The notes below the pieces were generated by a model. It was given only the letters and a program-made list of their open reading frames with translations. It made no database searches and was not told the origin of the DNA. From Rhodospirillaceae bacterium (GTDB lineage Bacteria > Pseudomonadota > Alphaproteobacteria > Rhodospirillales > JABHCV01), in the NCBI GenBank assembly GCA_018671895.1, contig JABHGV010000008.1, forward strand, positions 1 through 64,000: 64,000 nucleotides of DNA. Direction: 5' to 3'. Made by a program: the position numbers and the translations under genes. This document shows positions 7,492 through 10,354 of this stretch, piece by piece (within the stretch, counting starts at the first letter, position 1; each line of letters starts with the position of its first letter).

Positions 7492-8762
7492 ACACCAATG
7501 AAAACACCGATATCGCAGCCCTGATGCAAGGCATGGGCAAGGCCGCCAAGGCCGCCGCCAGTGAATTAGCTTCGGCCTCGACCGCAGCCAAGAATACGGC
7601 CCTGACGGAATCGGCCAAGGCCTTGCGCGACAGCAAGGCGGCTATTCTTGACGCCAACGCCAAAGATATGGCGGCGGGCGAGAAGAAAGGCCTGAAGGGC
7701 TCGTTCCTCGACCGTTTGATGCTGGACGACGGGCGTATCGAAGCGATGGCCGCAGGGCTCCAAGCGATCGCCGAACTGGCCGATCCCGTCGGCGTTCGTT
7801 TAAGCGACTGGGACCGCCCCAATGGTCTGCATATCGAGCGGATCAGCACGCCCTTGGGCGTGATCGGCGTTATTTATGAATCCCGGCCCAACGTCACGGC
7901 GGATGCCGGGGCGCTGTGCCTGAAATCCGGCAATGCGTCGATCCTGCGCGGCGGCTCGGAAAGCTTTCATTCGTCCGCGGTCATTGTCACCTGCCTGAAA
8001 CAGGGCCTGAAGGCGGCGGGTTTGCCAGAAGACGCGATCCAACTGGTGCCGACGGCCGACCGTGATGCGGTTGGCGAACTGCTGCGGCTGGTCGAATATG
8101 TCGATGTCATTGTGCCGCGCGGCGGAAAGTCCCTGATCGAGAGGATCACGGCTGAAAGCCGGATCCCCATGTTCAAGCATCTGGAAGGCATCTGTCATAC
8201 CTATATCGATGATGGGGCCGACACAGACATGGCGAAAAATGTCGTGCTCAACGCTAAGATGCGCCGCACCGGCATTTGCGGGGCAACGGAAACCCTGCTG
8301 GTGGCGCGCACGGTTGCGCCGACCCTGTTGCCCGGTATCGTCGATGCCTTGGTCGATGCCGGATGCGAAGTGCGTGGCGATACTGACGCCGTCGCTATCG
8401 ACGGACGCATCGCGGCCGCTTCCGATGATGACTGGGACACAGAATATCTGGATGCCATTATTTCCGTCGCCGTCGTCGATGGTGTTGATCAGGCCATCGC
8501 CCACATTGGCGAACACAGCTCGCAACACACAGAAGCCATCATCACCGAGGATTCCAAAGCGGCAGAAGAATTCCTCAATCGGGTCGACAGTGCCATTGTC
8601 ATGGTCAATGCCTCGACCCAGTTCGCCGATGGCGGCGAATTCGGCATGGGGGCCGAAATCGGTATCTCGACGGGCAAACTGCATGCTCGCGGGCCGGTCG
8701 GGCTCGAACAATTGACAAGCTTCAAATACGTCGTTCGCGGAACCGGGCAATGCCGACCGTAA
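7488..8762 (+). CDS. proA: Gamma-glutamyl phosphate reductase
   Basis: NADPH-dependent reduction of gamma-glutamyl phosphate to glutamate-5-semialdehyde, second step of proline synthesis. The 424-residue protein has the aldehyde-dehydrogenase-like fold, with [20 protein letters not shown] and the catalytic Cys region [15 protein letters not shown]. It is coupled to proB by ATGA overlap and overlaps the nadD start by 13 bp. Confidence 0.97.
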
Positions 8763-9340
8763 ACGCCTTAAAAGGCCAGCGCATAGGCCTGCTCGGCGGT
8801 TCCTTCAATCCGGCCCACGAGGGACACCTGCACATCAGCAAACTGGCGCTGGACCGATTGGGGCTGGATGCGGTGTGGTGGATGGTCAGCCCGCAGAACC
8901 CGCTGAAATCGACGGATGACATGGCAGGATTTTCTGAACGCATGGGGCAGGCGGCACAGGTTGCGGCGGATGACCACCGAATCATCGTTACCGGAATCGA
9001 GCGTGAACTGGGCACGCGCTTCACCGTTGATACGGTTCAGGCCCTGAAACGCAGGTTTCCCAGGGTCCGCTTCGTCCTTGTCATGGGCGCGGATTTGCTG
9101 GCCGAAGTGCCAAAATGGAAAAACTGGTGCGGCCTGTTCAATGCCGTTCCCATTGCGGTTTTCGCGCGGCCCTCGTATTCTTATCAAGCGTTGTCAGGCA
9201 AGGCGGCGCGGCGTTTCGGGACGAAAAGAGTTTCCCGTTCCCGCTGGTCCACCCTGGTCAACATGCGTCCACCGGCGTGGGCGTTCCTGCGGACGAAGGA
9301 ACATTCACAGTCAGCGACACGTATCCGCGCCGGACGGTAA
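8750..9340 (+). CDS. nadD: Nicotinate-nucleotide adenylyltransferase
   Basis: Joins nicotinate mononucleotide and ATP to form deamido-NAD. The 196-residue protein has the nucleotidyltransferase signature [15 protein letters not shown] and the second motif SATRIRAGR at the very end, in place of the common SSTxIR. The start is within the last codons of proA. The nadD-rsfS-rlmH order is the standard alphaproteobacterial one. Confidence 0.93.
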
Positions 9341-9355
9341 ACAAATACAAACGAT

Positions 9356-9369
9356 AGGAGAAGACCATA
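9356..9369 (+). promoter_or_regulatory. Ribosome binding site and unusual AUA start of rsfS
   Basis: AGGAG at 9356-9360 lies 6 nt before ATA at 9367-9369. The frame is closed upstream by TAG at 9355-9357, and no ATG, GTG or TTG occurs before GTG 9418. The conserved RsfS N-terminus (VELLKLVEKTLDDDKAE) begins upstream of 9418, so ATA is the best-placed start. Confidence 0.55.
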
Positions 9370-9756
9370 CCTCGACCGAAAAAGACGCCGCCAACGGCAG
9401 TAGAACTACTGAAGCTGGTGGAGAAAACGCTGGATGACGACAAGGCCGAAGGGCTGCTCGTTATTGACCTGTCGGGAAAGTCATCCCTGACCGATTACAT
9501 GATAATCGCCAGCGGCACATCACAGCGCCATGTCGGTGCCATGGCCCAAAACATCAGTGAAAAAGTAAAAGCCAGTGGCGTAGACGGCATTGCCGTCGAG
9601 GGCATGCGGACGTGCGACTGGGTTCTGGTTGATGCCGGCGACGTCATTGTTCATCTGTTCCGCCCGGAAGTACGCAAGTTCTACAATCTGGAAAAGATGT
9701 GGGGCGTACCAGCACCGGACGACGCGGACGAAACGGCGGAAGCGACAAGCATTTGA
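9367..9756 (+). CDS. rsfS: Ribosome silencing factor RsfS
   Basis: RsfS binds L14 on the large subunit and blocks subunit joining when nutrients are scarce. From the proposed ATA start the protein has 129 residues. The core (DYMIIASGTSQRHVGAMA, then GMRTCDWVLVDAGDVIVH, then VRKFYNLEKMWG) is typical of the family. A GTG start at 9418 would cut the first conserved helix (LLKLVEKTLDD), so it is less likely. It sits 26 bp after nadD. Poor initiation at AUA could keep the level low; that is inference. Confidence 0.9.
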   Translation: MPRPKKTPPTAVELLKLVEKTLDDDKAEGLLVIDLSGKSSLTDYMIIASGTSQRHVGAMAQNISEKVKASGVDGIAVEGMRTCDWVLVDAGDVIVHLFRPEVRKFYNLEKMWGVPAPDDADETAEATSI

Positions 9757-9781
9757 GAGTGAAAATGAGCAAACCCGAAAG

Positions 9782-9805
9782 TCCGAAAGACTTCTTTCTT
9801 TCGGA
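9782..9805 (+). terminator. Stem-loop after rsfS
   Basis: TCCGAAAG (9782-9789) and CTTTCGGA (9798-9805) form a perfect 8-bp stem with an 8-nt loop, 26 bp after the rsfS stop. Only TTTG follows, so it may be a weak terminator or a processing hairpin. Confidence 0.45.
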
Positions 9806-9811
9806 TTTGAG

Positions 9812-9884
9812 AAGGCCGCGACTGCGGACCGCCGCTCCTGCGGCGAGCCAAGGGGCGAGTAGCCCCGCCCGGCGCTTGAGGGGC
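9812..9884 (+). repeat. Intergenic repeat, copy A
   Basis: Carries the GC-rich arm (GCGACTGCGG) and the 39-bp core (9846-9884: AGCCAAGGGGCG...GCTTGAGGGGC) shared with copies at 30991, 53823, 57090 and 62081. It ends 5 bp before the rlmH start, so it forms the rlmH leader and could hide or expose its ribosome binding site. Confidence 0.8.
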
Positions 9885-9889
9885 TATTT

Positions 9890-10354
9890 ATGCGATTGCT
9901 GATAGCCGCTGTGGGTCGCGCCAAGGCTGGCCCCGAACGCGACTTGTTCGACCATTACCGGGGCCGCATCCGGCCACCATTCTCCCTTGATCTCAAAGAA
10001 GTAGAAGAAAAGCGCTCCCTCAGCACGTCTGAAATGAAACAGCGCGAGGCCGAGTTGCTGACCTGCGCGGTGCCTACGGGTGCCATCGTCGTCGCCATGG
10101 ACGAGCGCGGCAAGCAGCTTTCCAGCATCGATTTTGCGGGCAAACTGGGTGGCTGGCGCGATGGGGGCGAGGGCGATGTAGCCTTTATGATTGGCGGTGC
10201 CGACGGGCTCGATGCATCGGTTCGCGACACCGCCCGGATGACCCTGTCGCTGGGGGCGGCGACCTGGCCGCACATGCTGGTTCGCGGTCTTCTGGCGGAA
10301 CAGATTTACCGGGCGCAATGCATCCTCGGCGGGCACCCGTATCATCGAGAATAA
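9890..10354 (+). CDS. rlmH: 23S rRNA pseudouridine-1915 N3-methyltransferase
   Basis: A 154-residue SPOUT methyltransferase that modifies pseudouridine 1915 in helix 69 of 23S rRNA. Recognised by MRLLIAAVGRAKAGPE at the start, the SAM-binding knot VAFMIGGADGLD and the C-terminal GLLAEQIYRAQCI with GGHPYHRE at the end. It follows rsfS as in most alphaproteobacteria but is separated by a repeat element. Confidence 0.95.
   Translation: MRLLIAAVGRAKAGPERDLFDHYRGRIRPPFSLDLKEVEEKRSLSTSEMKQREAELLTCAVPTGAIVVAMDERGKQLSSIDFAGKLGGWRDGGEGDVAFMIGGADGLDASVRDTARMTLSLGAATWPHMLVRGLLAEQIYRAQCILGGHPYHRE

Follow-up and report, generated by a model that had tools for sequence, protein, structure and literature searches.

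Comparative evidence for a weak, infC-like start codon of the ribosome-silencing factor gene rsfS in Alphaproteobacteria and its proposed link to initiation factor IF3

Where does translation of rsfS begin when its reading frame offers no ATG, GTG or TTG ahead of the conserved core of the protein? This question is raised by the first 64,000 nucleotides of a contig from a Rhodospirillaceae bacterium (JABHGV010000008.1 of assembly GCA_018671895.1; this whole stretch is called the window), in which rsfS stands in the gene order nadD-rsfS-rlmH that is usual for, though not strictly defining of, the RsfS family (Table 1). An earlier note, made from the sequence alone, had proposed that rsfS starts at an ATA codon 6 nt behind an AGGAG, that the frame contains no canonical start codon before GTG 9418 and that this GTG already lies inside the conserved first helix; all three observations on which it built are borne out by direct reading of the sequence. 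Scores of 120.9 bits against TIGR00090 (cut-off 56.9) and 115.1 bits against PF02410 (cut-off 21.6), both above the curated cut-offs, place the product in the RsfS/iojap/YbeB family, and the gene is single-copy across the 98 contigs of the genome.

Table 1. Coordinates of rsfS, its candidate start elements and its neighbours in the window
Feature	Position	Strand	Remarks
nadD, gene 5' of rsfS	8750..9340	+	its stop ends 26 nt before ATA 9367
TAG stop in rsfS frame	9355..9357	+	closes the frame 4 codons 5' of ATA
Shine-Dalgarno element AGGAG of rsfS	9356..9360	+	spacer to ATA 6 nt; AAGGAG/AGGAG-type equivalents in relatives
ATA, near-certain start codon of rsfS	9367..9369	+	Ile triplet in the slot of relatives; class-wide frame control
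rsfS coding sequence, read from ATA	9367..9756	+	129 codons plus TGA; TIGR00090 and PF02410 matches; 23-sequence alignment
GTG, first canonical in-frame codon of rsfS	9418..9420	+	encodes V of LLKLVEK; rejected as start
TGA stop of rsfS	9754-9756	+	
rlmH, gene 3' of rsfS	9890..10354	+	

Among 60 genomes searched, including that of the window, 58 gave an rsfS match, and we read the best 30 loci (the window and 29 relatives) around the start slot. In 28 of these loci an Ile triplet aligns with ATA 9367 (ATA in 23, ATT in three and ATC in two); in the other two, L027 and L029, a Shine-Dalgarno-placed ATA lies, as judged by eye, 1 and 4 codons downstream. Several relatives also have a stop at codon -4 or -5 that closes the frame in the manner of the window's TAG. 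Within the order, relatives therefore have ATA, ATT or ATC and not ATG at the codon that the earlier note had singled out. Since ATA makes up only 4 of the 117 isoleucine codons in seven genes neighbouring rsfS (ATA 4, ATT 34, ATC 79), the preference for ATA in this slot does not reflect ordinary internal isoleucine coding. A canonical codon follows the slot within 8 codons in 7 of the 30 loci (L003, L004, L005, L006, L014, L016 and L027; an ATG in five of them) and may, as far as sequence can tell, serve as a nearby start there, although each would need a more distant Shine-Dalgarno element; the window has no such codon. We note that in a relative of 0.9 Mb the rsfS match (G046:C17:5465-5779) spans two in-frame TAA codons, be it by decay, sequence error or another cause.

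For the class as a whole, we compiled 228 alphaproteobacterial loci with 222 distinct rsfS genes; before counting, genes with identical sequence around the start were removed, as were L111 and L193, which repeat the window locus. The loci comprise the 30 near loci including the window, the best 80 named contigs, the 29 best class matches and further sets of 9, 68 and 12 relatives; the 68 were picked, mostly one per family code, only among the matches listed, so that divergent lineages are under-sampled and the sample is weighted toward relatives. In a codon-blind slot test, which takes the triplets at proper spacing after the best Shine-Dalgarno match in the rsfS frame and uses the two wrong frames as control, 217 of the 222 genes had a match in the true frame. 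Their best slots held ATA 74, CTG 43, ATC 21, ATT 17, TTG 12, ATG 2 and GTG 1 times, compared with wrong-frame counts (+1/+2) of 2/0 for ATA, 4/2 for CTG, 2/7 for ATC, 0/1 for ATT, 3/1 for TTG, 1/1 for ATG and 1/2 for GTG. This amounts to 155 slots outside AUG, GUG and UUG against 15 inside, with TTG, which IF3 accepts, likewise above background (12 versus 3/1). A looser rule that demands a Shine-Dalgarno-placed non-AUG triplet and no canonical one returned 155 of 222 genes, a count with about 15% noise given the 38/222 and 30/222 obtained in the wrong frames. At least one non-AUG call was found in 86 of 104 family codes, only canonical calls in 7 and neither in 11. The Shine-Dalgarno spacing of 185 calls ranged from 4 to 9, which in part reflects the 4-10 that the search rule allowed.

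A FastTree phylogeny of 223 RsfS rows, built on alignment columns from codon 17 on, could be labelled for 167 rows; a clear slot call was absent in 56 rows and canonical in 13. The tree implies at least 21 triplet changes among the ATA, ATC and ATT rows and 9 between these rows and CTG, counts that are inflated by tree error because RsfS is short. Of the named contigs that the tree includes, 17 of 18 Rhodospirillales gave ATA, ATC or ATT and 19 of 27 Hyphomicrobiales gave CTG, and none of the 8 Sphingomonadales gave such a call. Mutating ATA to ATG takes a single transition, yet ATG occupies only 2 of 217 slots. We propose that the weak rsfS start is maintained by selection, its slot shifting among AUA, AUC, AUU and CUG (the latter notably in Hyphomicrobiales) and shunning AUG; avoidance of AUG, conservation of the slot and the infC-like type of start are apparent in the sequences themselves. 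In seven of the eight Sphingomonadales loci (L045, L064, L082, L087, L091, L095 and L102), rsfS seems to be ATG-started with an AGGAG-like element 14-15 nt upstream, and this distant Shine-Dalgarno element is perhaps another route to weak initiation. Separately, records titled Mesoflavibacter and Candidatus Kuenenia (the pair L049/L046) carry an alphaproteobacterial-type rsfS, which suggests that these public assemblies are mislabelled or contaminated.

The weak start is not a general habit of the class, and the tested hibernation and assembly factors do not share it either. Under similar Shine-Dalgarno rules, calls with only non-AUG triplets were made for 1 of 96 rlmH, 11 of 101 nadD, 2 of 30 hpf and 1 of 30 rbfA genes, though the stretches scanned were shorter for these genes than for rsfS, which lowers their chance rate and makes the wrong-frame comparison the fairer control. 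ATA occupied the slots of two nadD, one rlmH and no hpf or rbfA genes, with no enrichment comparable to that in rsfS. Outside the class, 49 rsfS genes of other Pseudomonadota gave one call with non-AUG triplets only, 23 with canonical triplets only, 4 with both and 21 with neither, and their best slots held TTG 6, ATG 4, GTG 3 and ATT 1 times.

The earlier note had drawn an analogy to infC, the gene of IF3, and this analogy has been strengthened. The infC gene of the window genome (L161, G000:C90) has a start region reading AGAGGAGCTATTACA-ATA, with its Shine-Dalgarno element in place and an in-frame ATG 5 codons downstream. Among 107 alphaproteobacterial infC genes found by profile search, the slot behind the best Shine-Dalgarno match held ATA 73, ATC 26, ATT 1 and ATG 0 times, where 2.9, 2.6, 3.1 and 4.0 were expected, and infC of these organisms thus appears to start at AUA or AUC. 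Of the 88 genomes in which both genes could be read, 78 gave a non-AUG call for rsfS; in 77 of the 78, infC stood at ATA, ATC or ATT by a positional tally that is biased to isoleucine triplets (the slot tally was used for infC alone). Across the 88 matched genomes infC is nearly invariant at ATA or ATC, which leaves hardly any scope for co-variation of the two start types. Alike weak starts of rsfS and infC suggest one common control. We also note that the context ATA-GCG-AGA of infC in the window genome resembles the ATA-(CCA/GCA)-CGA of several rsfS genes.

Public annotation places rsfS starts elsewhere. The four annotated alphaproteobacterial records that we examined (L450, L451, L452 and L454) start at ATG or GTG and none at a CTG behind a Shine-Dalgarno-like stretch: the annotated start is an ATG 5' of that stretch in S. 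meliloti and Rhizobium sp. NLR16a, a downstream ATG in Rhizobium sp. Q54 and a GTG inside the core in Qingshengfaniella. All three Rhizobiaceae records have a purine-rich, Shine-Dalgarno-like stretch followed by CTG-ACA-ACA, and in a Methylobacterium record the rsfS region carries no annotation. Judged from sequence, the two upstream ATGs of S. meliloti and NLR16a may be genuine starts. If our reading holds, gene callers restricted to ATG, GTG and TTG would annotate a conserved gene from the wrong start codon.

To our knowledge, few bacterial genes keep a start codon that is discriminated by IF3, and CUG is among the codons so discriminated. This discrimination is reportedly the subject of Sussman 1996 and Sacerdot 1996. 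IF3 is described to repress starts other than ATG, GTG and TTG, with infC autoregulating via its ATT (PMC5472188), and IF3 destabilises 30S complexes on such other start codons as the basis of infC self-regulation (PMC5472188, PMC8266586). RsfS, as described for the S. aureus protein, binds uL14 and thereby blocks 50S joining (PMC7125091), and IF3 and RsfS were found to rise together in an E. coli delta-rimM mutant and were proposed to guard as partners against premature joining (PMC13246957). E. coli rsfS (ybeB) starts with UUG and its translation was left unchanged by polyamines (PMC10917681), so the joint rise of IF3 and RsfS in that organism is independent of the codon type discussed here.

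Our favoured reading, which we regard as probable, is that rsfS of the window is translated from AUA 9367, that this weak start is selected and that it ties the RsfS level to the balance between IF3 and ribosomes. Initiator fMet-tRNA would be used at AUA 9367 in vivo, and the good Shine-Dalgarno element would offset the imperfect pairing of AUA with this tRNA. IF3 would discriminate against the rsfS start triplets of these species, and RsfS synthesis would be held low and coupled to the IF3-to-ribosome balance like the synthesis of IF3 itself. With too little IF3 for the 30S subunits present, the two anti-association factors (IF3 on the 30S, RsfS on the 50S) would be made in larger amounts, and with plentiful IF3 the synthesis of both would be throttled; we infer, in short, that the 50S anti-association factor is controlled like its 30S counterpart. 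A bolder step would add that RsfS slows 50S joining and so gives IF3 time to reject weak-start 30S complexes on rsfS mRNA. This would create a single start-codon homeostat in which IF3 represses infC and rsfS via AUA, AUC, AUU or CUG and RsfS represses its own mRNA, a scheme that we put forward tentatively and hold to be somewhat doubtful as a whole; if true, RsfS would be regulated at the very step that it blocks. With a class-wide IF3-discriminated start in rsfS, a ribosome-silencing factor would be linked to initiation fidelity and IF3 and RsfS would have a simple route to a joint rise; which genes besides infC are under IF3 thereby becomes a question that can be put to ordinary laboratory strains.

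The main rival accepts AUA as the start and takes it as a fixed brake on RsfS without any dynamic link to IF3, on the argument that too much of a factor that inhibits subunit joining does harm. It can point to S. aureus, where reporters with AUU and AUA starts reached, in poor medium, about 10% of the level seen with AUG and where cvfC1 was medium-independent (PMC13009471), and to other possibly weak designs such as TTG in 12 of 217 slots, the Sphingomonadales ATG with a Shine-Dalgarno element 14-15 nt away and the UUG of E. coli (PMC10917681). We nevertheless find a fixed brake unlikely, given that rsfS mostly uses triplets outside AUG, GUG and UUG (155 versus 15), though GTG or TTG would lower expression too, and that these triplets match the infC type. 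Distinctly less probable is translational coupling, in which ribosomes ending nadD would reinitiate at the weak rsfS start and nadD translation would be the main control: nadD lies directly 5' on the same strand in all 85 non-AUG loci where it was found, and its stop precedes the rsfS start by 26 nt in the window and by a median of 47 nt, but these distances are broad (9 to 176 nt from the 10th to the 90th percentile), the rsfS genes in question were called by their own Shine-Dalgarno elements and coupling would leave the avoidance of ATG unexplained.

That AUA 9367 is the start of rsfS is near certain from the comparison with relatives, which strongly supports what the earlier note had suggested. 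A canonical start such as GTG 9418, which would give a protein 17 residues shorter, is very improbable even though its Pfam score is nearly equal (114.8 versus 115.1 bits) and 58 of 222 class relatives have GTG at codon 17. No Shine-Dalgarno element was found before this GTG, the codon is ATC, GTC, GTT or the like and thus no start codon in most relatives, and leucine is conserved ahead of it at codons 13, 14 and 16 in 26, 28 and 23 of the 30 near loci, respectively, partly via synonymous codons; at codon 14, for example, the most frequent third base is present in 13 of 30. Moreover, 14 of 204 rsfS genes with a visible upstream stop lack ATG, GTG and TTG from that stop through codon 30, and a canonical start would cost them the first helix. 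The fragmented state of the window's assembly might invite the idea that an ATG was misread as ATA, as the earlier note had itself considered, yet this error reading is refuted by the ATA, ATT or ATC that fills the slot in 29 other loci (displaced in two), and we give it practically no credence.

A read-through fusion of nadD and rsfS was rejected since TAG 9355 is in frame and nadD lies in a different frame; where the upstream frame is open, as in some relatives, this is not conserved and lends no support to such a fusion. A structured leader was likewise rejected as the main feature (z -0.01 for the window region); start regions of rsfS are less structured than those of rlmH (mean MFE -14.1 versus -24.4 kcal/mol), which is partly an effect of base composition. 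A scan for sigma-70-like promoters between positions 8600 and 10000 found none. On the other side of the gene, rlmH follows rsfS in 85 of the 86 loci inspected, and the intervening gap of the window (9757-9889, folded as 9757-9892) folds far more stably than its shuffled versions (z -4.24, 0 of 200 shuffles) and contains a hairpin of 12 pairs that may be an attenuator, a processing site or a repeat element.

The best reading of these comparisons is that rsfS constitutes a putative class-wide addition to the infC-type, IF3-discriminated genes that is new to the open-access literature searched: by comparison, its start lies outside AUG, GUG and UUG, the Shine-Dalgarno element is correctly spaced (6 nt in the window), and the arrangement is conserved across related species with AUG avoided, except in Sphingomonadales and some families. 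Among the titles, abstract openings and passages covered there, a non-AUG start of rsfS other than the UUG of E. coli does not appear. The closest parallel is infC itself, which shares the near-cognate start, the good Shine-Dalgarno element and a ribosome anti-association factor as product, with a putative ATA-started copy in the window genome. RsfS differs in acting on the 50S subunit, in that control by IF3 would be expected for rsfS by analogy and in the use of CUG in one large branch, and we know of no role of RsfS in start codon selection.

Elsewhere, infC starts at ATT in E. coli, at ATC in Streptomyces and at AUA in S. aureus (PMC5472188, PMC13009471). Streptomyces sigR, which starts at GTC and is repressed by IF3, resembles rsfS as a gene other than infC with a conserved non-canonical start, whereas it encodes a sigma factor, is conserved in this respect within Streptomyces and owes its place to experiment where for rsfS we argue from sequence comparison (PMC5472188). 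In Staphylococcus, ccpN (AUA) and cvfC1 (AUU) likewise combine conserved AUA or AUU starts with a strong Shine-Dalgarno element and lowered expression, but they encode other proteins, belong to Bacillota and were mapped by retapamulin profiling, in a paper whose main text does not contain the word RsfS (PMC13009471). E. coli rsfS (ybeB; PMC10917681), finally, is the same gene and also uses a minor start codon, but its UUG falls within the set that IF3 tolerates.
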